In this document: piece by piece, positions 11,387 through 21,708 of the stretch | How the letters are laid out: every line of letters starts with the position of its first letter | Position numbering within the stretch: position 1 is the first letter of the stretch | DNA from: Actinobacteria bacterium HGW-Actinobacteria-7 | GTDB taxonomy: Bacteria; Actinomycetota; Coriobacteriia; Anaerosomatales; PHET01 | Direction of reading: 5' to 3' | Assembly (NCBI GenBank): GCA_002841275.1 | Contig: PHET01000019.1 | Span: forward strand, 1-64,000 | Length of the DNA stretch: 64,000 nucleotides | The notes under the pieces: model-generated | Seen by the model: the letters and a program-made list of their open reading frames with translations, nothing else | Told to the model about the DNA's origin: nothing | Database searches by the model: none | Position numbers and translations under genes: made by a program

Positions 11387-12133
11387 CTATCCCCCGATAT
11401 CCGGAAGACGCACTTCGATGCCGGGAACGACCGATGACAGCCAGTTGGCGAGCAGGCCCAGTCTCCCGGTCGCGATGAGCAGGCCCACGACGACCAGCAG
11501 CCCGCCGGCGACCCGATTGATGGTCAACGAATGGCGCTGCAGCCAACGCATCAATCCTCGAAGGCGACCAAACAACACGGCAACTAGGATGAAGGGTATC
11601 CCCAGGCCCAACGAGTACATCACCAGCAGCAACGCGCCCTGTGAGACACTACCCGATGATCCCGCCATCGCCAGAATAGTTCCAAGAATCGGTCCGACGC
11701 ACGGCGTCCACCCAGCGGCAAAAGCCATGCCCATCACAAGCGAAGCGCCCTCCCCGAAGGCACGCGACTTCTCAAGATCCACTCGTGCCTCACCGTAGAG
11801 CCATGGCACCTTGATTATTCCGAGCATCAGGATGCCAAATGCGGCCACCGCCAGCCCGGCGATGACCTCGATGGTCCCGCGATACGCAGAGAGGAACTGG
11901 CCCAGAAACGACGCAGTGGCGCCTAGGGCAACAAACACCACCGAGAAACCGAGAACGAAGAGGAGTGCCGGAGAGAGGACCCTGCCCAGAGATGGGCGCT
12001 CATCGGCAAGTTCTGCAGTTGTGAGTCCGGTCATGAATGACAGATAGCCAGGAATCAGCGGCAACACGCAGGGAGAGAGAAAAGACAGCGTACCGGCTGC
12101 CAGTGCGATCAACAGTGCGGACATATCAGGCAT
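11387..12133 (-). CDS. ccdA: CcdA-like thiol-disulfide transmembrane protein
   Basis: This 248-residue protein has six predicted membrane helices and belongs to the CcdA/DsbD-beta family, which carries electrons from cytoplasmic thioredoxin across the membrane to extracytoplasmic thiol proteins, for example during cytochrome c maturation. The two active cysteines lie in helices 1 and 4 (LSFLSPCVLPLIPGY and GWTPCVGPILGT). The ATG at 12133 (MPDMSALL) was chosen because an AGGAG site is five bases upstream; eight further upstream codons lack such a site. Its promoter carries a perfect CsoR/CstR-type palindrome, and thioredoxin in this window has the same arrangement, so the two are probably co-regulated. 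Confidence 0.9.
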   Translation of the reverse strand: MPDMSALLIALAAGTLSFLSPCVLPLIPGYLSFMTGLTTAELADERPSLGRVLSPALLFVLGFSVVFVALGATASFLGQFLSAYRGTIEVIAGLAVAAFGILMLGIIKVPWLYGEARVDLEKSRAFGEGASLVMGMAFAAGWTPCVGPILGTILAMAGSSGSVSQGALLLVMYSLGLGIPFILVAVLFGRLRGLMRWLQRHSLTINRVAGGLLVVVGLLIATGRLGLLANWLSSVVPGIEVRLPDIGG

Positions 12134-12178
12134 GAAGACTCCTGGTCGACGACTCATCAGTGGTCAAACAACCACCGT

Positions 12179-12207
12179 AGCATACCCCATGGGGTATTTC
12201 TGCACAA
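12179..12207 (-). promoter_or_regulatory. ccdA promoter with CsoR/CstR-type operator
   Basis: On the minus strand a -35 TTGTGC (12207-12202) and a -10 TATGCT (12184-12179) are separated by exactly 17 bp. The perfect 16-bp palindrome ATACCCCATGGGGTAT occupies 12182-12197, filling most of the spacer and providing the first bases of the -10. The operator ends 49 bp before the ccdA start. A bound repressor would block RNA polymerase. The palindrome matches the form published for CsoR/CstR-family operators. The regulator is probably the tandem-domain protein at 19314-19907, an inference from the shared motif. Confidence 0.75.
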
Positions 12208-12235
12208 CCCGAGGTCGAACAGCGCGACGCGCCGT

Positions 12236-12457
12236 CTAGGACAGAAGCTCCGCATCGTAGCCAGCCGACTGGATAGCAGTGATCAGCTGAGGAACGGACA
12301 CGCGCTCATCGTCGAACACCACGGCGCTCAGACCGGTAGCGTGGTCGGTCTTGGACTCGACCACGCCGTCGAGTTCCGTAAGGGTCATGTCGACGAGCAT
12401 GGAGCATGAGCTGCAATGCAGGCCGGAAGTCGCAAAGCGGGCAGTTACCTGTGACAT
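12236..12457 (-). CDS. HMA-domain metallochaperone-like protein
   Basis: This 73-residue protein consists of a single heavy-metal-associated fold (beta-alpha-beta-beta-alpha-beta), as in CopZ/MerP. The metal site is GLHCSSC with cysteines 15 and 18, and the C-terminal helix segment (LITAIQSAGYDAELLS) is typical. It should bind a soft metal such as Cu(I), Hg(II) or Zn(II), or could serve as a thiol carrier. No P-type ATPase is adjacent. It lies just upstream of the ccdA promoter on the same strand, with the operator in the gap after its stop codon, so ccdA can be transcribed independently of it. Metal specificity cannot be fixed from sequence alone. Confidence 0.85.
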   Translation of the reverse strand: MSQVTARFATSGLHCSSCSMLVDMTLTELDGVVESKTDHATGLSAVVFDDERVSVPQLITAIQSAGYDAELLS

Positions 12458-12537
12458 GGTCTCTCCTCAGCCAATCGCAATCAGGGCACAGCGAAGTGTC
12501 GAACTCACGTTATCACGTTGGGGCCGGTTTCCGACGA

Positions 12538-12894
12538 TCAGCGCGTGGGGACCATCTCTGCCGGCGCCACGACCTCTTCGGGCACGCGAGCACCGCAGTG
12601 CGGGCACAACCGCCATTCGGAGTAGACTGCCCCTCCACACTCAGGGCATTGCACCATGGTGTGGTTGCCAATGTCCGAATGCTCGGCCGAATCGACCGGC
12701 GCGGCAAACGTCCACGCGAACCAAGCGGCGGCGATGCCGGTCACGACCGACAGAAGCCACGCGACAGGAGCAAGCGGATTGTCCGTGGCGATCCAATGAG
12801 GATCGAACTCCGCGATGATGCCGGCCAACGTGAGCGAGGACACGAGTCCGGCCACGAAGGAAGCAGTAACGCGTGTTGCCCTCAGTTTCGTCAC
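12538..12894 (-). CDS. small membrane protein with C-terminal zinc ribbon
   Basis: This 118-residue protein has two hydrophobic helices (about 10-28 and 42-65) followed by a cytoplasmic zinc ribbon made of two CxxC pairs (CPEC and CPHC) around residues 83-102. I do not recognise a specific family beyond the zinc-ribbon class. It follows the NtrC-type regulator with a 60-bp gap on the same strand. The ribbon could mediate protein contact or DNA contact near the membrane. Both the frame and the spaced cysteine pairs argue that it is real despite its small size. Confidence 0.65.
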   Translation of the reverse strand: MTKLRATRVTASFVAGLVSSLTLAGIIAEFDPHWIATDNPLAPVAWLLSVVTGIAAAWFAWTFAAPVDSAEHSDIGNHTMVQCPECGGAVYSEWRLCPHCGARVPEEVVAPAEMVPTR

Positions 12895-12954
12895 GATTGC
12901 CCTTTGCAGGAGTTGTTTGGACGACTTCCAAGGTGCAAGCGGCGTGCCAGTGGC

Positions 12955-14304
12955 CTACAGCCCCAGCCTCTGCATCCGGACCTCCAACGTCTTGGTCGTC
13001 AGCCCTAGGAGTTTCGCAGCTTTGGGTGTGTTACTTCCGGAACGGTCCAAGGCCTGCCGAACGAGGTCGAGTTCGACCTCCTCGAGGTCAACACCCGCCT
13101 CAGGCAGCACGAATCCACCTGCAACCCGTTCGATGCCGCACGCGTTGGAGCGAATCTCGGCAGGCAGGTCCTCTACACCGATCTCGTCGTCATGAGATAG
13201 GATCACAATCCGCTCGATGGTGTTCTCCAGCTCACGGATGTTGCCCGGCCATTGATACCCGCTGAGTGCCTGGATCGCCGCCGCAGACAGCGCCTTGGTA
13301 CCGGCGCGGTACTTCTCCAGAAAATGGGCCGCCAACACGGGAATGTCAGTCGGCCTCTGCCTCAACGGCGGAAGCGTGACAGGCACCACATTGAGACGGT
13401 AGAAGAGATCCTCTCGGAAGATCCCATCAGCGATGAGCTGCTGGAGGTCTTGGTTGGTGGCAGCCACGACTCGGACATCCACATCAATCGTGCGCGTACC
13501 GCCAAGACGTTCGAACTTGCGCTCCTGCAACACGCGCAACAGTTTGACCTGGGTCGCAAGTGAGATGTCGCCGATCTCATCGAGGAACAGCGTTCCGCCG
13601 TTGGCCATCTCGAATCGGCCGGGCTTGGCGTTGACCGCGCCAGTGAACGCGCCCTTCTCGTAGCCGAACAGCTCACTCTCAAGAAGAGTCTCGGGCAGCG
13701 CGCCGGCCGAAACGGAGACGAACGGCCGATTCGCCCTGTCGGACAGGTCATGGATGGCTCGCGCGATCAGTTCTTTGCCGGTGCCGGACTCGCCGTAGAT
13801 CATGACCGTCGCGCTGGTAGGAGCCACCTTGCGTACAGTCTCCAAAATGGCGAGCATGCCTGGATCCGAGGCGACGATACCTTCTACGTCGTAGTCCTTC
13901 TGCACCTCTTCGCGAAGTCGCTCGACCTCGGCTGCGAGCTCCCGGAAGTGCATGGCCTTGTCGAGTGCGAGCTTGAGCTCTTCGAGGTCGAAAGGCTTGG
14001 TGAGATACTCGCTCGCACCAGCCTTCATCGCCTCGACCGCGGTTGCCACATTGCCGTGAGCGGTAAGCATGATTATGGGAAAGGTCGCCCCCTGGCCTCG
14101 CAGACGCCTGAGGACCTCCATGCCGTCCGGTGCAGGCATGCGATGGTCAAGGACCATTATGTCGGGCTCCTGCTCCGCAACCGCGGCCAAGGCCTCTTTC
14201 CCATCAGCTGCCTCGACGACTTCGAACCCCTCGGGTGCCAACGCCTGCCCGAGCACCCAGCGCATGTTCTTCTCGTCGTCAACGATGAGAATCCTCTTGG
14301 TCAT
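12955..14304 (-). CDS. sigma-54-dependent NtrC-family response regulator
   Basis: This 449-residue activator has the full NtrC architecture: a receiver domain (1-120) with phosphoacceptor Asp53 in VLDHRMP, an AAA+ domain (about 140-370) with Walker A GESGTGKE, the sigma-54 contact loop GAFTGA and Walker [12 protein letters not shown], and a C-terminal Fis-type helix-turn-helix ending at the stop. It is predicted to bind upstream activating sites and open sigma-54 promoters. It is third in the operon rpoN-histidine kinase-regulator, so the kinase 12 bp upstream is its probable partner. The closeness of receiver and HTH to atypical NtrC proteins leaves the target genes open; nitrogen control is possible but not shown. 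Confidence 0.92.
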
Positions 14305-14316
14305 GCCGGTCCTTCC

Positions 14317-15849
14317 CTAGTCATCCATTGAAGCTGGCAGCGTCACAACGAACGTCGTGCCCGCGCGTGAACTCTCAATCTCGATATGCCCATCGTGCTC
14401 GTCGATGATACGGTGCACGATGGTCAAGCCCAACCCTGTCCCGTCAGCTCGTTTTGTGAAGAACGGGTCGAAGACCTTGTTGAGATCCTCGGGCGCAATA
14501 CCCGGCCCGTTATCCGACACGGTTATCACCACGTAGTCATCGGTGCTCGAACCCGAGATGTCTATCTGACCTCCAACACGATCCATCGCCTGTACGGCGT
14601 TGGTGACGAGGTTCAAGAACACCTGCTTCAGCTGGTCGGGATCTCCGAACACGGGCCGCAGATCGTCGTCCCCGATTCCCACGTCGATGGTCACGTCGGC
14701 CTGCTTCGCGAACCGGTTGGTGAAGAGAACCACATCCTCGAGCACGCTCTTGAGATCCGTGCGCACGAGAGTGGGCTTGCTGGGCCGTCCGAAGTCGAGC
14801 AGCGCCTTGATCACCTTGTCGAGCCGGTCGATCTCCTGCTTGACCACCCCTGCTGCCTCGTGGATTCGCTCGGGGTCCGCCTGAGCGTCTTCGAGCAGCT
14901 GTACGGTAGCGCGGATGACCCCCAGAGGGTTGCGGACTTCGTGCGCCACACCGGCGGTCAGCTCGCCCATGGCTGCCAGTCGGTCCGCTCTGATGAGTTG
15001 GTCGGTGAGCGCCTTGATGTCTGAGACGTCCTCAAGCGTCACGACGGCGCCGAGCACAGTGCCTCCCACCGCGCGCATGCGCGAGGTGGACGCCTGAACA
15101 TGGATCTCCTGTCCTGAAGCCGTGACAAGACTCGCGTCTCTCAGAGCCAGCGGCAAACGCCCGGCAAGGACCTTCGACACGTCCGAAGCGAGTCCGCCGT
15201 CATCTTTGAAGAGCAGCCCAATCGGCTTGGGAACCATGTCGAACTCCGATATGCCAAGCATGCGTTCGGCCGCAGGGTTCGCCGTGGCGACGGAACCGTC
15301 TGGCCCAACAGTGAGCACCGCAGACGTGATCGAGCGGAGAATGGACGAGGTGTAGTCCTGTACGTTGATCAGTTGGATAGCGCGTTCTTCGAGCTTCTTG
15401 TAGGCCTCTTCCAACTGGAGAGACACCTGGCGCAGGTCTCGAGTCCTGCTCTCCTCGACGTCTCTGACGATGCCGAACAGAAGCCCTACACCCAGATACG
15501 ACGCGATCTCAAGCGCGTTGTCGAATCCCATGCCAAGCGCCTGATTCAGCGAAATCTGCGCATGGATTCCGAAGGGAATCGCGGCGCCGAGTGCCGCCAG
15601 AAGTCCACCGCGCTTCCCGAAGATCCATGCCGCATACACAATCGGAACAAAGAACAGCCGGCGGTACAGAAGGTGCAGAGGGACGTTAGCAGGCGTGTTG
15701 TCCGTGAAGATGTGCACGATCGTGAGGATCGAAAGCATGACCACAACGGCGGCCAGCGCCCGTGCGTTGCCCGAGCGGGCCACGGGCACCGCGCCATCAA
15801 CGCGCGACGTCTGAGGTCGGCGCGGCAGACCGATGCGATCCGGTGTCAT
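14317..15849 (-). CDS. membrane PAS histidine kinase (NtrB/AtoS-like)
   Basis: This 510-residue sensor kinase has an N-terminal membrane part of about three to four helices (roughly residues 25-130, with RRLFFVPIVYAAWIFGKRG), a short coiled linker, a PAS domain (about 165-270), a HisKA domain with phospho-His in GVAHEVRNPLG near residue 297, and a HATPase domain with NLVTNAVQAM and GTGLGLTIV. The ATG at 15849 overlaps the stop of rpoN (ATGA) and has a GAGG ribosome site, so it was preferred to a GTG six codons upstream. It is expected to phosphorylate the NtrC-type regulator encoded next. The signal is unknown, but the membrane module resembles those found in sensors of membrane or redox state. 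Confidence 0.9.
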   Translation of the reverse strand: MTPDRIGLPRRPQTSRVDGAVPVARSGNARALAAVVVMLSILTIVHIFTDNTPANVPLHLLYRRLFFVPIVYAAWIFGKRGGLLAALGAAIPFGIHAQISLNQALGMGFDNALEIASYLGVGLLFGIVRDVEESRTRDLRQVSLQLEEAYKKLEERAIQLINVQDYTSSILRSITSAVLTVGPDGSVATANPAAERMLGISEFDMVPKPIGLLFKDDGGLASDVSKVLAGRLPLALRDASLVTASGQEIHVQASTSRMRAVGGTVLGAVVTLEDVSDIKALTDQLIRADRLAAMGELTAGVAHEVRNPLGVIRATVQLLEDAQADPERIHEAAGVVKQEIDRLDKVIKALLDFGRPSKPTLVRTDLKSVLEDVVLFTNRFAKQADVTIDVGIGDDDLRPVFGDPDQLKQVFLNLVTNAVQAMDRVGGQIDISGSSTDDYVVITVSDNGPGIAPEDLNKVFDPFFTKRADGTGLGLTIVHRIIDEHDGHIEIESSRAGTTFVVTLPASMDD

Positions 15850-17237
15850 CGGCGGCGCCTCGCCCACGAAGGCTCGATTCCCAACTCCTCGCGGTACTTG
15901 GCCACGGTCCGTCGAGCCACCGTCACCCCCTCGGCTGTGAGCAGCTCGGCCAACCTCTGGTCCGAAAGCGGCTTTGACGCATCCTCGTCTTTGACGAGCT
16001 CGCGAAGGCGCTGCTTGATGCTGGTCGACGCAACGTCCATGCCTGTGGACGTGCGATAGCCGCCACTGAAGAAGTACTTAAGTTCGAACAGCCCGTACGG
16101 CGTTGCCATGTACTTCCCGGTCACCCCTCTGGAGACCGTGGACAGATGAACGCCGATCTCGACCGCCACATCCTCGAGCCTCAAAGGCCGTAGCGGTCCC
16201 CGGCCGTCCTCGAAGAAGTCCCGCTGCACTTCCAGCACTATCTCGGTGATTCGGGTGACCGTGTCCTTGCGCCGATCCACATTGCGGATGAAGCTCTCGG
16301 CCGAACGAATCTTATCCTTGAGATAGCGTCTGGTCTCATCATCGGCGTTCGAGCCCGACCGCAGCATCGACCGATAGCGCGGTGAGACCCTGAGCGCTGG
16401 CAGCGCCTCATTGTTGGGGATGATCAACCAGTCCTCATCGAAGCGCCTCACCGTCACATCTGGAACGATGTACCCCGGAGACGGTCCCGGCGAAAACGCG
16501 CCAGCCGGGCGCGGGTTCAGAATCCTGAGGATCTCCACCAGCCGTCTGACCTCGTCCTCGTCCACCCTGAGCGCGCGAGCAACCCTCTTGAAGTGGTTGG
16601 ATGCCACGTCGTCCAGATGGTCCTTGATGATGCGCGTCAGCCGAGGCTCGTCGATTCCGAGGAACTCCATCTGGAGGCACAGGGCTTCGGCAAGGTCACG
16701 AGCACCAACCCCGGGGGGGTCCAGCTGCTGGATAGCCTCGAGCCCCGCCTTGGCGACGTCTACCGACTCACCCACCAGGGTCGCTATCTCCTCCAACGAA
16801 CCCCTGAAGAACCCGTCGACATCAAGAGAACCTACGACGGCCTTCGCCGCGTGCGACACCGCGGGCGAGATATCAAGCAGCGTCAGTTGGCCGAGAAGAT
16901 AGTCATCGAACGTCTGCACGCCACCAACGAACTCCTCGGTATTCGCCTGCTCAGCGTTGGGATCCCGAGGTGATGTCGGTTCGATCTGGTCAAGATCGTC
17001 GTACATCTCGAGCCATTCGTCCCACGAGCGCTCGTCTTCCCGCTCCTCGAGAGGTTCTTCACCCTCGGCCGGCTCGGAGTCGGTCTCGTCGACCTCGAGA
17101 ACGGGATTCTCGAGCATCTCCGCCTCCACCATCTGCTGGAGTTCGGCAACGGGCATCGCGAGTATGGCAAGCCCCTGGTAGACCTGGGGCGAAAGCGTCA
17201 TCTTCTGACGCAGTTCGGGGCGCTGCTGTAGTTCCAT
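15846..17237 (-). CDS. rpoN: RNA polymerase sigma-54 factor
   Basis: This 463-residue protein is a complete sigma-54. It has a Gln/Leu-rich region I (MELQQRPELRQKMTLSPQ) and an acidic linker near 55-75 with several Glu/Asp runs. The core-binding domain is in the middle, followed by the DNA-contact helix-turn-helix and the invariant RpoN box ARRTVAKYREELGI, which ends 8-10 residues before the stop. It directs transcription from -24/-12 promoters and requires an AAA+ activator, one of which is encoded two genes downstream. Sigma-54 is absent from most Actinobacteria, so its presence is notable here. A sigma-54-like promoter sits just upstream of the gene. The ATG start is preceded by GGAGG. Confidence 0.97.
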   Translation of the reverse strand: MELQQRPELRQKMTLSPQVYQGLAILAMPVAELQQMVEAEMLENPVLEVDETDSEPAEGEEPLEEREDERSWDEWLEMYDDLDQIEPTSPRDPNAEQANTEEFVGGVQTFDDYLLGQLTLLDISPAVSHAAKAVVGSLDVDGFFRGSLEEIATLVGESVDVAKAGLEAIQQLDPPGVGARDLAEALCLQMEFLGIDEPRLTRIIKDHLDDVASNHFKRVARALRVDEDEVRRLVEILRILNPRPAGAFSPGPSPGYIVPDVTVRRFDEDWLIIPNNEALPALRVSPRYRSMLRSGSNADDETRRYLKDKIRSAESFIRNVDRRKDTVTRITEIVLEVQRDFFEDGRGPLRPLRLEDVAVEIGVHLSTVSRGVTGKYMATPYGLFELKYFFSGGYRTSTGMDVASTSIKQRLRELVKDEDASKPLSDQRLAELLTAEGVTVARRTVAKYREELGIEPSWARRRR

Positions 17238-17284
17238 TGCCCCTCCTCCGTCGGCTCTTGGGGCCGCTGGGAAGCGCGGTCAAC

Positions 17285-17300
17285 TGCAAAAAATATACCA
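17285..17300 (-). promoter_or_regulatory. candidate sigma-54 promoter of rpoN
   Basis: On the minus strand TGGTATATTTTTTGCA keeps the GG and GC dinucleotides separated by exactly 10 bp. It matches nine of the eleven defined positions of TGGCAC-N5-TTGCA. The -12 GC lies about 49 bp before the rpoN start, a plausible distance. The region is AT-rich against a high-GC background, so chance similarity is a real possibility. If real, rpoN would need its own product, or a low basal promoter, for expression. Confidence 0.4.
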
Positions 17301-17322
17301 CTTTCAGCGCTCAATCATTCAC

Positions 17323-18294
17323 TCAGTCCGGAGGAGGCAGCGGCGACACGGTTTCTCTACCCGGAAGTTGCACCACGATGATCGCGGCGATCACTAGAAC
17401 ACCGCCCATCAGCTGGGTCAATGAGAGCGACTCGCGAAAGAGCGCGAAGGCTCCGACGGCCGCGAGCATCGGCTCGATTGTTGATGCCACCGTGGCGTTG
17501 GTCGGAGGGATGTCCCGCAGCGCGAGCAGAAACGCCGAGAACGGAACGACAGTGCTCACCACAGCCATGAACAACACTGCTCCAGCCGTCTTCACGTCCG
17601 AGAAGACAGACAGTATCGCGGATGGCCCAAGCCAGAGCATCCAGAAGATCGATGCGAATCCCAGCCCGTAGACGAGCATGGTGTACGGCGTGAAACGGGA
17701 TGCGGCAACGCTGCCCATCAGCGAGTAGAAGGCGAAAAGCACCGCTGATGCCAGACCCCAGGCCAGACCCGCCGATGAGACAACCAAACCGTCGCCACCG
17801 AGAGCGCCCACCACGAATGCGCAGCCGAGCACCGATAATGCCACGCCGACGGGGAGCGCCCATGTGAAGCGATGGCCGAGAAACATCACTCCCACGATAA
17901 GAACCAGGATCGGAGCGAGGTACTCGAGCAGGATAGCCGTCGCAACGTTGGTGAGAGATATCGTCATGAAGTAGGTGAAGTGCACTCCCGCTAGGCCGAT
18001 CACGCCGAATGCGGCAAGAAAGGGCACGTCGGGTGCAGCTATCTTGAAAGCGCCGCGCCGGGTAACAAGCAGCCACAACACAAGAATCACGAAAGCCGAG
18101 ACGGCGCGGGCACCCGAGAGTACCGTAGGCTCAATCGCAATACCCAGAGGCGGCACGGGCCAGTGGGCCGTTGCATCCGATGCGGTTGTGAACAGCCACT
18201 TTGCGGTGAGTCCACCGCTCGCCCAGCAGGTCGCGGCCAGAAGCGCGAGCATATAGCCGCGCGCGGGACGAACCGGCCTATACGAATCCTGCAT
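17323..18294 (-). CDS. EamA/DMT-family transporter
   Basis: This 323-residue integral membrane protein has ten predicted helices in two EamA repeats (about residues 15-155 and 165-310), the drug/metabolite transporter arrangement. Such carriers export amino acids, nucleosides or drugs, or import small solutes; the substrate is not predictable here. The frame is open far upstream, but the ATG at 18294 (MQDSYRPVRP) has a strong GAGGAG site and overlaps the preceding CDF transporter gene by 17 bp. The longer upstream reading is just the other frame of that gene. Co-translation with the cation exporter suggests but does not prove related physiology. Confidence 0.85.
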   Translation of the reverse strand: MQDSYRPVRPARGYMLALLAATCWASGGLTAKWLFTTASDATAHWPVPPLGIAIEPTVLSGARAVSAFVILVLWLLVTRRGAFKIAAPDVPFLAAFGVIGLAGVHFTYFMTISLTNVATAILLEYLAPILVLIVGVMFLGHRFTWALPVGVALSVLGCAFVVGALGGDGLVVSSAGLAWGLASAVLFAFYSLMGSVAASRFTPYTMLVYGLGFASIFWMLWLGPSAILSVFSDVKTAGAVLFMAVVSTVVPFSAFLLALRDIPPTNATVASTIEPMLAAVGAFALFRESLSLTQLMGGVLVIAAIIVVQLPGRETVSPLPPPD

Positions 18295-19222
18295 CGATCT
18301 CCTCGGCGGTCTTCGCACGTTGATAGTCGTCGTAGGGCTCGAGGTGAACGATAGCATCGACAACCTGCCCGAACTGCTGGCAGAGCACCCGTTCGACGGC
18401 CTCGGCAATTGCATGGCCTTCAGCGACGCTGAGGGAAGAATCCACTTGGACGTGAAGATCGACGTAGACTTCCGCGGCCGATCCACGCGTCCGGATGTGA
18501 TGGCAGCCCTTCACCCCGTCCACGGTCTCCGCAATCGTACAGATATCCGGAGCCGGGATTCGCGCTGAGTCCGACAGGGTCGCGCTCGCCTGTCGAAACA
18601 CACCCAGCGCGGTGTAGACGATTGCACCCGCCACGAGCACGGCCACGATCGGGTCGGCTTTCGCGAAGCCCATTCTCACGAGCACCAGTGAGAACACAAC
18701 ACCTATGCTGACGAAGATGTCCGATGTCGTGTGATTGGCGTCAGCGATGAGGATCTCGCTCCCAAGTCGCTGCCCCGCACGCCGCTCCCACAGGGTCACG
18801 CCGATGTTGACCGCCAGCGTGACAAGCATGATGGCGAAAGACACGACACCGACGCGCGGAGGCGCGGCCCCTTGGGTCAACTCCGCGACAGCGCTCGAAC
18901 CGACTCGGTAGGCTGCGAGGAGCAGCATCGCGCCAATGGCCGCCGATGCATAGGTCTCGTACTTGCCATGCCCGTAGGGGTGATCCTTGTCCGCCGGACG
19001 AGCTGCCATGCCCATGCCAACAAGCCCAACGACATTGCTCGCACCGTCAAAGAACGAGTGGAATCCGTCTGCCTGCATTGCGGCCGAGCCGCTGGCCAGA
19101 CCCCACAGAAGCTTGGCGGCGGCCACCGCGATGTTGAGCACCAGGATCGCCCACAGTACGCGACGGATACCGCCTATGCGGCTCGCCCCTGCGCTGCCCT
19201 GCCCTGACTTGGTGTAACCCAC
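18278..19222 (-). CDS. cation diffusion facilitator (CDF) transporter
   Basis: This protein of about 314 residues has six membrane helices and a C-terminal cytoplasmic metal-binding domain (about 215-314), the CDF layout. Transport-site residues are in DGFHSFFD of helix 2 and DANHTTSD of helix 5, and the HPYGHGKYE loop is conserved. CDF proteins exchange protons for Zn, Fe, Co, Cd or Mn and expel the metal. I chose the GTG at 19222 because GAGGGG precedes it by about five bases; an ATG seven codons upstream is possible. It is divergent from the CsoR/CstR-type repressor, and the shared intergenic DNA holds a predicted operator, so the repressor may also control this exporter. Confidence 0.88.
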   Translation of the reverse strand: MGYTKSGQGSAGASRIGGIRRVLWAILVLNIAVAAAKLLWGLASGSAAMQADGFHSFFDGASNVVGLVGMGMAARPADKDHPYGHGKYETYASAAIGAMLLLAAYRVGSSAVAELTQGAAPPRVGVVSFAIMLVTLAVNIGVTLWERRAGQRLGSEILIADANHTTSDIFVSIGVVFSLVLVRMGFAKADPIVAVLVAGAIVYTALGVFRQASATLSDSARIPAPDICTIAETVDGVKGCHHIRTRGSAAEVYVDLHVQVDSSLSVAEGHAIAEAVERVLCQQFGQVVDAIVHLEPYDDYQRAKTAEEIDAGFV

Positions 19223-19242
19223 GGAGTCCCCTCGCACAACCA

Positions 19243-19271
19243 TTGCGGCAGATACCCCACGGGGGTACCAT
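19243..19271 (+). promoter_or_regulatory. csoR/cstR-type repressor promoter with operator
   Basis: On the plus strand a -35 TTGCGG (19243-19248) and a -10 TACCAT (19266-19271) are 17 bp apart. The spacer holds an imperfect palindrome, ATACCCCACGGGGGTAC (19252-19268), one base longer at the centre than the other two copies in the window. The repressor ATG at 19314 lies about 47 bp beyond the operator. Autoregulation is predicted. The same DNA also lies upstream of the divergent CDF gene, where it could act from the other side, although no good -35 is visible in that direction. Confidence 0.7.
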
Positions 19272-19313
19272 TCACTGTGACCGAACCCACGGTACCAGAT
19301 TGCCGAGAATCCC

Positions 19314-19907
19314 ATGCCCACAAGACCATTGCCAGCCACAGTCGGCGACGACACTGAGCGCAAGAAGATCATCAACCGCCTGAGACGCCTGGAAGGTCAG
19401 GTTCGCGGTCTCCAGTCAATGGTTGAGAGCCGTGCCGCCTGTGAGCAGGTATTGACGCAGGTCATGGCATGCAAATCGGCACTAAGCCAAGTGGCTATGC
19501 ATGTCATCGGTCATGCCATGAAGAGCTGTTTGGTGGATGAGACCCTCAGAGACCGCGGCGAGCTCATCGGCGCAGCGTTCGACGTCTACCTGCACTACCG
19601 CGAGCTAAGTGACGAAGCCTTCGCCGCGCCCAACACCACGCCTGCGACGCCGGAGAAGTTGCTTCTGCGGCTCAAGGAACTCGAAGGGCAGCTGTGCGAT
19701 GTCCAAGATGTCATCACTGCACCGTCGGACTGCGAGAGCGCGCTTCTTGGTCTGACTCGCGCAAGCTCCACCCTTAACGACATCTCGCTGACCATCCTTG
19801 GGCATGCCATGCAGGACTGCCTGATAGACGAGTGCGCTACGTCACGCGACGCGGTCATCGACCAAGCCATCCAGGTGTTTCTGCGCTACTCCTCCTGCGT
19901 AAGGTAG
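19314..19907 (+). CDS. tandem-domain CsoR/CstR-family transcriptional repressor
   Basis: This 197-residue protein contains two copies of the all-helical CsoR/FrmR (DUF156) fold, about residues 15-100 and 112-195; family members are normally single-domain, about 90-100 residues. Domain 1 has NRLRRLEGQVRGLQ with Cys43 and Cys72. Domain 2 has LRLKELEGQLCDVQ with Cys140 and Cys169. In both, the position four residues before the second cysteine, histidine in copper-sensing CsoR, is alanine (HAMKSC, HAMQDC). That pattern resembles the persulfide sensor CstR, so a sulfane-sulfur or thiol-stress signal is more likely than Cu(I); this is inference. Domain 2 is less basic in its DNA-contact helix. The gene follows an operator-bearing promoter and ends before a strong hairpin. 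Confidence 0.88.
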   Translation: MPTRPLPATVGDDTERKKIINRLRRLEGQVRGLQSMVESRAACEQVLTQVMACKSALSQVAMHVIGHAMKSCLVDETLRDRGELIGAAFDVYLHYRELSDEAFAAPNTTPATPEKLLLRLKELEGQLCDVQDVITAPSDCESALLGLTRASSTLNDISLTILGHAMQDCLIDECATSRDAVIDQAIQVFLRYSSCVR

Positions 19908-19940
19908 TCGAGCTGGCGCGCTGTCTTGCGGTACCAAGAA

Positions 19941-19967
19941 GAAGGCCCCGGATCACCGGGGCCTTCT
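19941..19967. terminator. bidirectional intrinsic terminator
   Basis: An 11-bp perfect stem (GAAGGCCCCGG and CCGGGGCCTTC) with a four-base loop lies between the convergent repressor gene and thioredoxin gene. The run following it on the plus strand is only mildly T-rich (TTCTGTGTTG), and on the minus strand TTCTTC follows. It can therefore serve both directions, though less efficiently than a classic U-tract terminator. Confidence 0.75.
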
Positions 19968-19992
19968 GTGTTGCGCAATCCGTTCAGTGGTC

Positions 19993-20316
19993 CTAGGACT
20001 CGAGGCCCAACTCACGACCCAGAGCGTCGGAGCTTCGAGCGCCCACGACTTGCGCGGTAATCTCGCCGTGCTCGAACTTGGCGATGGTCGGGATGCTCAT
20101 GATCCCGTACTTGACTGCGATGTCGCGCGACTCGTCGATGTTGAGCTTCACGAACTTCGCCGCCCCACCAACACGTCCGGCTAGCTTGTCGAGTTCAGGG
20201 GCGACCATCTTACAGGGGCCGCACCACGGTGCCCAAAAATCTACGATCACGGGGGTGTCCGAACCGATTACTTCGGCGTCCCAAGACTGCTCGGTAATAT
20301 CTAGCGCGCTGCTCAT
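19993..20316 (-). CDS. trxA: thioredoxin
   Basis: This 107-residue thioredoxin has active site WCGPC (Cys32, Cys35) and the conserved cis-Pro region SIPTIAKF. It reduces cytosolic protein disulfides and could feed electrons to the CcdA protein at 11387-12133. The ATG at 20316 (MSSALDITEQ) was chosen over a longer reading because a GGAG ribosome site lies five to six bases upstream. The promoter 50 bp upstream embeds the same palindrome seen before ccdA, placing this gene in the predicted repressor regulon. It is convergent with the repressor gene across the terminator. Confidence 0.95.
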   Translation of the reverse strand: MSSALDITEQSWDAEVIGSDTPVIVDFWAPWCGPCKMVAPELDKLAGRVGGAAKFVKLNIDESRDIAVKYGIMSIPTIAKFEHGEITAQVVGARSSDALGRELGLES

Positions 20317-20362
20317 GTGTTCTCCATCTCCGCCACATCGTTCAGCTTCCTGTACGAGCTCC

Positions 20363-20391
20363 AGTATACCCATGGGGGTATTCCGCGTCAA
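20363..20391 (-). promoter_or_regulatory. trxA promoter with CsoR/CstR-type operator
   Basis: On the minus strand the -35 TTGACG (20391-20386) and -10 TATACT (20368-20363) are near-consensus and 17 bp apart. The operator ATACCCATGGGGGTAT (20366-20381) sits in the spacer and shares the first bases of the -10, the same geometry as the ccdA and repressor promoters. It ends 50 bp before the trxA start. Repressor binding would exclude RNA polymerase directly. Confidence 0.8.
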
Positions 20392-20487: not shown

Positions 20488-21708
20488 ATGCCATTGATGT
20501 GGGCTTCGCTGATGATCGGTGCCGTCTTGGCGGGAGCGGCCGTCGTGGCGGTCATGGTGGCGCGCCCAGCGCTCGAGCCGGCTTTCGCGCTTGCTGGTGT
20601 TCTCGGCATGGGCGGATCGACATTCTGTCTCTTCCGCATTGCCATCACCTATCGCACTGGTGAGCCGGCATTGTGGGCATTCGCGTTCGTGCTGGCGGGT
20701 ACCGCTGGTGGGTACGCACTCGCATCGACGCTACTACACGCGCTCGCCCGACATCGCCCCCTTTCCCCTCTCCCCAGTGCTCTTCCCGATGATCCGGGCG
20801 CACCCGCGATCCTTGTAGTGGCCTGCACAGAGCCCGAGCACTATGAGCCAGCCGCTACAGCCCGCATGTTCGAGGCTCTGGCGTCAGAGGGCCTCCTGGA
20901 AGCGTCCATCGGCTTTCTGCCGTTCCTGTTCTTCGCGCAGAAGACACGCTATCGCGCGGTGGGCGGCATCAACCCCGCATATCAGCAGCTGACTGCAGTA
21001 TCCGAGAGGCTCGAGAAGACCATCAAGCGTGCGCGAGTGTCCCCCGTGCTGTGCTCGGGTCCCCACTCGCTCGAGGCGGCCGTGCTCCAAGCTGTCCGAG
21101 AAGGCCACCGCACGGTGGTTGTCGCCGAGCTTAGCGTCGGCGAGTCCCTCATCCTCGCAGGCGCCAAGCAGGCGCTGTCCAATCTGCGAATGAGCGAACG
21201 TGGAGTGTCTGTGACTCACACCGGTGTGTTGTGGTGCTCCGAGCGCGTTATAGGCATGCTGGCAGCTCGGGTCATGCGCTCCGCCACCGACGTCGCCACC
21301 ACTGGCGTGGTACTCGTGGGTCACGGTCAGCCCGATGAGATCGCAAGCAAGAATCCCCAGATGGATATCGATGAAACGGCCTTCCTCAGCAGGCTGAGGA
21401 TGACACTGCTGGATACAGGGCTCCAAGAAGCCAACGTGCGCGTCGCGTGGGCGGACTGGGGTGAGCCCGGTGTAACGACCACTGTGCGACATCTGGTCGC
21501 GCTGGGATGTACCCGGGTCATCGTGGAGCCCGCGGCGTTCCCGCTGGATACGATCGGAACACGTCTGGATCTGGAAGTCGCGGTCAGGCAGGCACGGGTA
21601 CAGGAGAACGCGACAATGGTCACGCTGCCCGCCTGGAGAGATGATCCGGCCGTGATAGAAGAGCTCCGCAGTCGAGTGGTCGACGCGCTCGCCGAACACA
21701 GCGTCTAG
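20488..21708 (+). CDS. membrane-anchored ferrochelatase-like protein
   Basis: This 406-residue protein has about three N-terminal hydrophobic helices (residues 1-85) and a C-terminal class II chelatase-like region. That region has features of HemH/CbiX-type enzymes: FFAQKTRYRAVGGINPAYQQL matches the ferrochelatase N-lobe pattern ending in a GG-x-x-P turn, the VVLVGHGQPDE strand places a candidate catalytic His near residue 279, and an acidic segment (TRLDLEVAV) near 360 is in the position of the second metal ligand. Ferrochelatases are usually soluble or peripherally bound, so a fused membrane module is unusual. Role in haem, cobalt or another tetrapyrrole insertion is undecided. The ATG at 20488 has AGGAGG upstream but with long spacing (about 12 bases). 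Confidence 0.6.
   Translation: MPLMWASLMIGAVLAGAAVVAVMVARPALEPAFALAGVLGMGGSTFCLFRIAITYRTGEPALWAFAFVLAGTAGGYALASTLLHALARHRPLSPLPSALPDDPGAPAILVVACTEPEHYEPAATARMFEALASEGLLEASIGFLPFLFFAQKTRYRAVGGINPAYQQLTAVSERLEKTIKRARVSPVLCSGPHSLEAAVLQAVREGHRTVVVAELSVGESLILAGAKQALSNLRMSERGVSVTHTGVLWCSERVIGMLAARVMRSATDVATTGVVLVGHGQPDEIASKNPQMDIDETAFLSRLRMTLLDTGLQEANVRVAWADWGEPGVTTTVRHLVALGCTRVIVEPAAFPLDTIGTRLDLEVAVRQARVQENATMVTLPAWRDDPAVIEELRSRVVDALAEHSV

Follow-up and report, generated by a model that had tools for sequence, protein, structure and literature searches.

We analyzed a 64,000-nucleotide stretch of DNA (the window) from Actinobacteria bacterium HGW-Actinobacteria-7, in which genes for a CsoR/CstR-family repressor, a thioredoxin, and a CcdA-type thiol carrier are each preceded by a promoter containing an ATACCC...GGGTAT-type palindrome. 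The features are listed below; the promoter elements were read from the sequence.

11387..12157, minus strand: CcdA/DsbD-type transmembrane thiol carrier (ccdA), putative target; PF02683, 56.2 bits, above cut-off
12179-12184 and 12202-12207, minus strand: ccdA promoter, TTGTGC (12202-12207) and TATGCT (12179-12184)
12182-12197, minus strand: putative ccdA operator, ATACCCCATGGGGTAT, 16 bp (N4)
12236..12457, minus strand: HMA-domain protein, upstream of the ccdA operator; PF00403, 43.9 bits
18278..19241, minus strand: CDF cation-efflux transporter, divergent from csoR; PF01545, 135.5 bits; start codon uncertain
19243-19248 and 19266-19271, plus strand: csoR promoter, TTGCGG (19243-19248) and TACCAT (19266-19271)
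19252-19268, plus strand: putative csoR operator, ATACCCCACGGGGGTAC, 17 bp (N5), with C rather than T as its last base
19314..19907, plus strand: CsoR/CstR-family repressor (csoR), 197 aa, two PF02583 domains in tandem
19993..20316, minus strand: thioredoxin (trx), putative target; TIGR01068, 111.3 bits (cut-off 96.8); PF00085
20363-20368 and 20386-20391, minus strand: trx promoter, TTGACG (20386-20391) and TATACT (20363-20368)
20366-20381, minus strand: putative trx operator, ATACCCATGGGGGTAT, 16 bp (N4)

Re-reading of the sequence reproduced exactly the palindrome coordinates given by the initial annotation (12182-12197, 19252-19268, and 20366-20381) and the shared design that it described: at all three sites, the promoter elements are separated by exactly 17 bp and the palindrome fills the spacer. 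The distance between site and start codon, given there as about 47–50 bp, is ~50 bp for trx, ~45 bp for csoR, and ~49 or ~25 bp for ccdA depending on the start used. The operator-in-spacer layout is also found at the promoter of a rhodanese gene elsewhere in the genome and at most FAD-oxidase and MFS promoters. It is not a universal rule, because at the permease and chemoreceptor sites the palindrome lies downstream of the apparent -10 element.

The three sites had been described as a three-site regulon. A scan of the 2.53-Mb genome for the perfect pattern ATACCCN3-6GGGTAT instead identified 11 matches, 9 of them on other contigs, compared with ~0.4–0.5 expected from base composition and none for the reversed pattern in the same scan; a regulon limited to three sites is therefore ruled out in favor of at least 11 perfect sites and an order-wide core. 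In sequence with a coding density of 91–95%, each of the 11 perfect sites falls between genes, and so the palindrome does not occur at similar frequency in coding regions, which the initial annotation had named as an observation that would count against it. Two imperfect matches (on contigs C11 and C18) lie within genes. Across the same order, the palindrome is present in 59 of 61 genomes, with 331 sites in total and none for the reversed pattern, and it is rare in the remainder of the class (mean 0.7). We considered whether these are chance palindromes in promoter-like sequence. When the outer A/T is dropped, the pattern TACCC...GGGTA does have a background (12 matches for the reversed control), so near-matches of this kind carry little weight standing alone; they are partly background, and two, within hypF-like and alr-like genes, were discarded. 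Chance may account for individual unconserved sites of the genome, but it is refuted for the conserved ones by the 11 perfect intergenic sites that are kept before the same genes across the order, and as a general explanation its probability is negligible.

Relatives across the order carry the csoR, trx, and ccdA sites at corresponding positions. Upstream of csoR, 19 of 20 relatives have a perfect 17-bp site at the same position; the trx site is perfect in 15 of the 16 trx genes of relatives and carries a single mismatch in the remaining one; and the ccdA site is perfect in 9 of 14 relatives (eight N4 and one N3), with a single-mismatch site in one further relative. The trx site is retained where trx has left the csoR neighborhood (G017 and L181), as is the ccdA site where ccdA has done so (G009 and L163). 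This recurrence supports trx and ccdA as putative targets, and the palindrome in the repressor's own promoter, in place in relatives, likewise supports the proposal that the repressor regulates itself. The CDF gene is a possible, weakly supported second target of the site at 19252. It is unlikely to be the main target, because the site persists in L133, L134, L135, and L137, where tblastn shows no CDF gene beside csoR. The HMA gene is a conserved neighbor by synteny and does not lie downstream of the ccdA site.

Against PF02583, the repressor scores 108.7 bits over two stretches (1.9e-31; gathering cut-off 22.8 bits), which places it in the CsoR family; the two domains score 77.6 and 37.7 bits. 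No second PF02583 match was found anywhere in the genome, making this its sole CsoR-family protein. In the 21 orthologues compared, Cys is conserved at positions X and Z (in both halves of the tandem forms), position Y is occupied by Ser or Ala, and the CstR-like DC motif is retained, either as such or as one of the close variants EC, GC, and AC. The protein thus has the two conserved Cys residues without a Y-position His that define the CstR type, as the initial annotation suggested, and not the Cys-His-Cys (X-Y-Z) pattern of Cu(I)-sensing CsoR proteins. The site before a rhodanese gene, both here and in 13 of 15 relatives sampled, matches the sulfurtransferase or sulfur-detoxification targets of CstR-type regulators.

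These observations bear on the alternative that the genes form a regulon for copper or another metal, with a Cu(I)-sensing repressor, thiol proteins that deliver metal, and HMA and CDF proteins that take part in metal handling. Membership of the CsoR family and the conserved HMA and CDF neighbors are compatible with such a function, and CcdA has roles in metalloprotein maturation. However, the absence of the Y-position His in 21 of 21 orthologues disfavors it; furthermore, the recurrent targets include no copper ATPase, the HMA gene is not downstream of a site, and the repressor falls far below the curated cut-offs of the NCBIfam equivalogs RicR (61.1 versus 175 bits), FrmR (45.4 versus 133 bits), and RcnR (35.1 versus 138 bits). 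We consider a metal regulon improbable.

The repressor is a tandem fusion in this genome, an architecture that the initial annotation did not mention, and most relatives carry a single-domain protein. Typical members of the CsoR/RcnR family form tetramers of three-helix protomers and bind a palindrome with a GC tract; an AlphaFold model of the tandem form contains two three-helix units (pLDDT 81). A fold search with this model returned single-domain CsoR matches only (4adz, TMt 0.75, E 0.24) and is therefore silent on how the two halves pack. A search for related loci with the tandem protein returned only one distant Erysipelothrix locus, and a literature search on tandem CsoR found nothing relevant.

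The closest match to the operator is that of ScCsoR (SCO0620) from Streptomyces coelicolor, which binds the 16-bp sequence ATACCn6GGTAT, requires two Cys residues for sulfane-sulfur sensing, and has a rhodanese gene among its targets (PMC7533328). ScCsoR and the repressor in the window are both CsoR-family proteins with two Cys residues, an operator of the ATACCn6GGTAT type, autoregulation, and a rhodanese target (the last two predicted here). It is very unlikely that the palindrome is bound by a different transcription factor. Sites are kept in some assemblies that lack CsoR (four and five sites in assemblies that are 73% and 85% complete, and two in one that is 91% complete). Nevertheless, the motif has the form of a known CsoR-type operator (PMC7533328), it precedes csoR at 19 of 20 loci, the repressor is the genome's only candidate from this family, and sites are fewer where the gene has been lost: CsoR-less genomes that are at least 90% complete have 0, 0, and 2 sites versus a mean of 5.9 (P = 0.002).

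Further recurrent sites precede genes for a membrane rhodanese, a chemoreceptor (a putative target in almost all genomes examined), an SBF-type permease, NAD synthetase, and an FAD/Fe-S oxidase. The SBF-type target scores 101.3 bits against the ACR3 arsenite permease model TIGR00832, below the equivalog cut-off of 282.8. Weighing against the sulfur-stress interpretation given below, persulfide dioxygenase, SQR, and TauE, which are typical of CstR operons, are absent among the targets seen, and the chemoreceptor is not accounted for by sulfur detoxification.

The rhodanese gene lies on a different contig from the window, under the same palindrome. In 14 of 14 sequences, an in-frame TGA occurs at the first active-site Cys of a thioredoxin domain and the frame remains open beyond it; the domain scores 54 bits across the TGA. 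Just after the TGA is a SECIS-like hairpin whose six-pair helix is 100% paired, with compensatory changes at two pairs, compared with at most 58% pairing in slid controls. The genome also encodes selenocysteine machinery (selB, 317 bits; tRNA-Sec, 69 bits; both above cut-off). The gene product, a single membrane-anchored protein with the predicted Sec motif UPxC (rhodanese-SecTrx), is probably a selenoprotein. Its N-terminal anchor is the only feature that suggests a location outside the membrane and the direction of the relay proposed below.

We think it probable that these sites serve a CstR-type repressor as operators in a persulfide/thiol-stress regulon that runs a relay from thioredoxin through CcdA to an extracytoplasmic rhodanese-SecTrx. 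The initial annotation had suggested control of thiol or persulfide balance across the membrane, and this theme is strengthened because the rhodanese-SecTrx gene has the same putative operator. From the sites, their positions and conservation, the domain content, the Cys pattern, and the recoding signals, all of which can be read directly in the DNA, we infer repressor binding, the effector, derepression, and the electron path. The repressor would occupy its target promoters, in the spacer or around the -10/start region, and block RNA polymerase; a persulfide, a polysulfide, or a related thiol oxidant would modify the two conserved Cys residues and release it from DNA; and derepression would yield more repressor, cytosolic thioredoxin, CcdA, and membrane-anchored rhodanese-SecTrx. 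Rhodanese-SecTrx would receive electrons from cytosolic thioredoxin via CcdA and, on the outer side of the membrane, strip and reduce sulfane sulfur. The chemoreceptor, SBF-type permease, NAD synthetase, and FAD/Fe-S oxidase may also belong to the regulon in parts of the order.

The same repressor and regulon could respond to a different signal (general disulfide or electrophile stress, nitroxyl, or selenium stress), with the cysteines forming a disulfide. In favor of this, the target set is one of general thiol-redox proteins and contains both a probable Sec protein and NAD synthetase; the CstR of Staphylococcus aureus is also reactive toward nitroxyl (PMC5480029); and TTHA1953 of Thermus thermophilus responds to oxidation and not to NaHS (PMC10318464). 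On the other hand, the rhodanese domain indicates sulfane sulfur, and the closest operator match belongs to a sulfane-sulfur sensor, ScCsoR. We regard a signal of this kind as unlikely, although it is the most credible of the alternatives considered here. More tentatively, and with somewhat less than even confidence, we suggest that an order-wide CstR-type regulon ties a dedicated, selenium-dependent persulfide-reducing relay across the membrane to a chemoreceptor, and that the tandem repressor of this genome is a built-in asymmetric sensor in which the first half would contact DNA and both halves would sense through Cys.

The initial annotation knew of no description of this set of genes. The target set does look new, as do the selenoprotein and the repressor fusion, but the type of regulator is already known, and so is the operator, from ScCsoR (PMC7533328). 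ScCsoR controls a local four-gene circuit (csoR, persulfide dioxygenase, rhodanese, and sulfite transporter) (PMC7533328), whereas the regulon proposed here is scattered, includes trx, ccdA, rhodanese-SecTrx, the chemoreceptor, and the SBF permease, and has, in this genome, a tandem repressor. The CstR proteins of S. aureus and Enterococcus faecalis are similarly Cys-based per/polysulfide-sensing CsoR paralogues that lack metal ligands and have rhodanese-type targets (PMC5480029, PMC9405070); S. aureus CstR probably has one operon under its direct control, in contrast to a genome-spread regulon centered on a transmembrane thiol relay. TTHA1953 resembles the present case in that one CsoR-like protein has several sulfur-related targets at unlinked loci, but it differs in its operator (TACNNTACNNNNGTANNGTA) and its Sox targets (PMC10318464).

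If our interpretation is correct, a little-studied order has a defined, testable sulfane-sulfur/thiol-stress regulon, in which one operator governs an electron path to the outside and a chemoreceptor is an unexpected target. The natural fusion of a CsoR-family repressor could be used to test the division of work among sensor subunits, and the rhodanese fused to a Sec thioredoxin represents a candidate selenoprotein architecture. The selenoprotein TsoB, which is rhodanese/DsbD fusion-like, combines Sec and a rhodanese with a membrane domain of the DsbD/CcdA type (NF045694; PMC13188914); here, these modules are divided between separate, apparently co-regulated genes, with rhodanese and Sec-thioredoxin in one protein and CcdA in another. 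Against the TsoB model NF045694, rhodanese-SecTrx scores 41.9 bits and CcdA 52.5 bits, both far below the equivalog cut-off of 805.

The initial annotation had proposed that three genes in the window are controlled through a shared palindrome, ATACCC-Nn-GGGTAT, placed within their promoters:

11387-12157, minus strand: ccdA
19314-19907, plus strand: csoR, the putative repressor gene
19993-20316, minus strand: thioredoxin gene (trx)

Reading of the sequence placed the palindromes at 12182-12197, 19252-19268, and 20366-20381, as described; at all three promoters exactly 17 bp separate the -35 hexamer from the -10, and the 3' half of the palindrome supplies the first bases of the -10. The csoR site has a 5 nt spacer (N5, 17 bp) and ends in GTAC, and the trx and ccdA sites each have a 4 nt spacer (N4, 16 bp). 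Because loose matching (up to three mismatches) in the window alone gave 19 matches against 9.5 expected, a modest excess over chance, the genome and its relatives were needed for the test.

In the 2.53 Mb genome, ATACCCN3-6GGGTA was found at 17 places and the reversed pattern at none. Eleven of the 17 sites are perfect on both sides, where base composition predicts about 0.4–0.5, and all 11 are intergenic in surroundings that are 91%–95% coding (genes outside the window were called with a simple codon-usage caller). This excess and placement argue against the possibility that the perfect motif is scattered at random through coding regions. Two imperfect sites lie inside genes (hypF-like and alr-like by translation), and omission of the outer A and T raised the background, with 12 matches to the reversed control. 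The three original sites are real, but the predicted regulon is not limited to them. Four of the 11 perfect sites (C4:4779, C17:31813, C35:29948, and C36:25475, by contig) have N3 (15 bp) spacing, which is rare among the relatives listed. The genes that follow them encode a 148 aa protein, a multihaem cytochrome, a class-V aminotransferase, and a 1301 aa protein, none of which was seen as a target in relatives.

Of 61 genomes of a single order (this genome and 60 relatives), 59 contain the perfect motif, with 331 occurrences in all, and in none of the 61 was the reversed pattern matched; 82 other genomes of the class have a mean of 0.7 sites. The gene order at the csoR locus (PP2C-ccdA-HMA-zinc ribbon-NtrC-HK-RpoN-EamA-CDF / csoR / trx / ferrochelatase-like) is for the most part retained in 20 relatives. 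In 19 of the 20 loci csoR has a perfect 17 bp N5 site in front of it, and among the genomes listed this spacing is mostly confined to csoR itself. Of 16 trx genes, 15 follow a perfect N4 site and the remaining one a site with one mismatch. For ccdA, 10 of 14 genes carry a site: it is a perfect N4 site in eight and a perfect N3 site in one, and the tenth has a single mismatch. Where trx (G017, L181) or ccdA (G009, L163) has moved away from csoR, the site is retained. The NtrC-type regulator, histidine kinase, and RpoN genes between ccdA and csoR (12955-17237) are kept order-wide. The ferrochelatase-like protein adjoining trx (20488-21705; PF00762, 41 bits) has an N-terminal hydrophobic region and was kept in 20 of 20 loci examined.

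A profile search identified the 19314-19907 protein as the sole PF02583 protein of the genome. Orthologues conserve the X and Z cysteines and have Ser or Ala at Y, not the copper ligand His, a pattern that would fit a CstR-like sensor and not a Cu(I) sensor. Genomes at least 90% complete that lack CsoR carry 0, 0, and 2 sites, compared with a mean of 5.9 with CsoR (P = 0.002, genomes being counted as independent), which supports the CsoR-family protein as the probable cognate regulator of the predicted operators. Two assemblies have no detected CsoR yet carry 4–5 sites; both are at most 85% complete.

The domain occurs twice in this protein (77.6 and 37.7 bits), and an AlphaFold model shows two three-helix units (pLDDT 81). 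Almost all relatives have one single-domain CsoR protein per genome; the tandem form occurs at the same locus in three families of the order (here and in G012 and G016; L129 and L132). As the N-halves cluster together in a tree (support 0.97) and so do the C-halves (0.99), the fusion probably arose once, although the single-domain form is found in two members of the family to which this genome belongs. The C-half keeps both cysteines, but within the NRLKRLEGQIRG and AAKSAL motifs it has lost conserved residues that we take from known CsoR work to be DNA-contacting.

Neither CstR-type sensors nor this class of operator is new. ScCsoR senses sulfane sulfur through two cysteines and binds ATACCn6GGTAT, an operator of the same class as the palindrome described here (PMC7533328). 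Staphylococcus aureus CstR directly controls probably one operon (PMC5480029), and the CsoR-like sulfur regulator TTHA1953 has several targets, but its operator differs from this palindrome (PMC10318464). A literature search found no account of this target set. The families present tentatively point to class Coriobacteriia, perhaps to the order OPB41/Anaerosomatales; one isolate of that order reduces elemental sulfur and thiosulfate (PMC9686372).

Further predicted targets, with recurrence among 15 sampled relatives

Membrane rhodanese: this genome and 13 relatives; motif site before gene
Membrane-anchored chemoreceptor with MCP signalling domain (L040:2829-4061): this genome and 14 relatives; motif site before gene
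SBF-family permease: this genome and 9 relatives; ACR3-like at 101 bits, below cut-off
NAD synthetase: this genome and 4 relatives; divergent Hsp20 gene alongside in two
FAD-oxidase with Fe-S and CCG domains: 5 relatives; motif site before gene
MFS transporter: this genome and 1 relative; motif site before gene

Sites before the aminotransferase, multihaem cytochrome, UbiA protein, and other genes did not recur in the 15 sampled relatives, and these are weaker candidates. The palindrome fills the spacer in the csoR, trx, ccdA, rhodanese, and most FAD-oxidase and MFS promoters, and overlaps the end of the apparent -10 in those of the permease and chemoreceptor; both positions would fit simple repression. 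In three FAD-oxidase promoters (L147, L158, and L166), a second ATACCC...GGGCAT-like sequence lies shortly 3' of the perfect site.

The rhodanese gene (contig C1, L031:4054-4755; relatives' loci L140, L144, L149, L155, L168, L171, L173, L177, L182, L190, L192, L195, and L198) has an apparent TGA stop in every genome, with the frame open beyond. All 14 sequences have this TGA where a thioredoxin active site has its first cysteine (...EFFTDS-U-PTC-KEMKP...; UPxC motif), and translation across the TGA gives Rhodanese (73 bits) and Thioredoxin (54 bits) domains. About 20 nt 3' of the TGA begins a SECIS-like hairpin of six pairs, its loop of the GGUC type. The helix is fully paired across the 13 distinct sequences and has compensatory changes at two pairs; slid controls were at most 58% paired. 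The genome encodes selenocysteine machinery (selB, 317 bits; tRNA-Sec, 69 bits; both above cut-off), and the gene likely encodes a selenoprotein. A standard gene caller would cut it short at the TGA. Because the N terminus resembles a membrane anchor, ending in a lipobox-like LSAC in L190 and L195, both domains should face outward. Among the entries of a 2026 selenoprotein catalogue are Sec thioredoxins and five forms of rhodanese, one of them TsoB (rhodanese/DsbD); in the portion consulted, no rhodanese-Sec-thioredoxin fusion was found (PMC13188914).

What the sequences themselves display is one predicted regulator, one predicted operator, conserved targets, redox motifs, and apparent recoding signals. 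The reduced repressor would sit on the target promoters and leave them when its cysteines become persulfidated or oxidised. Derepression would then provide Trx in the cytosol, CcdA in the membrane, and rhodanese-SecTrx on the outer side, and these three could work as a chain that reduces sulfane sulfur or disulfides on that side. With a chemoreceptor among the predicted targets, the same signal may also tune behavior or another Che-type output.

Outside the csoR locus, no other predicted target is shared as widely as the chemoreceptor. A conserved protein of 50–77 aa, weakly DUF1462-like (23.1 bits against a cut-off of 25), is encoded divergently from the chemoreceptor gene at L174:1889-2113 and 11 further loci.
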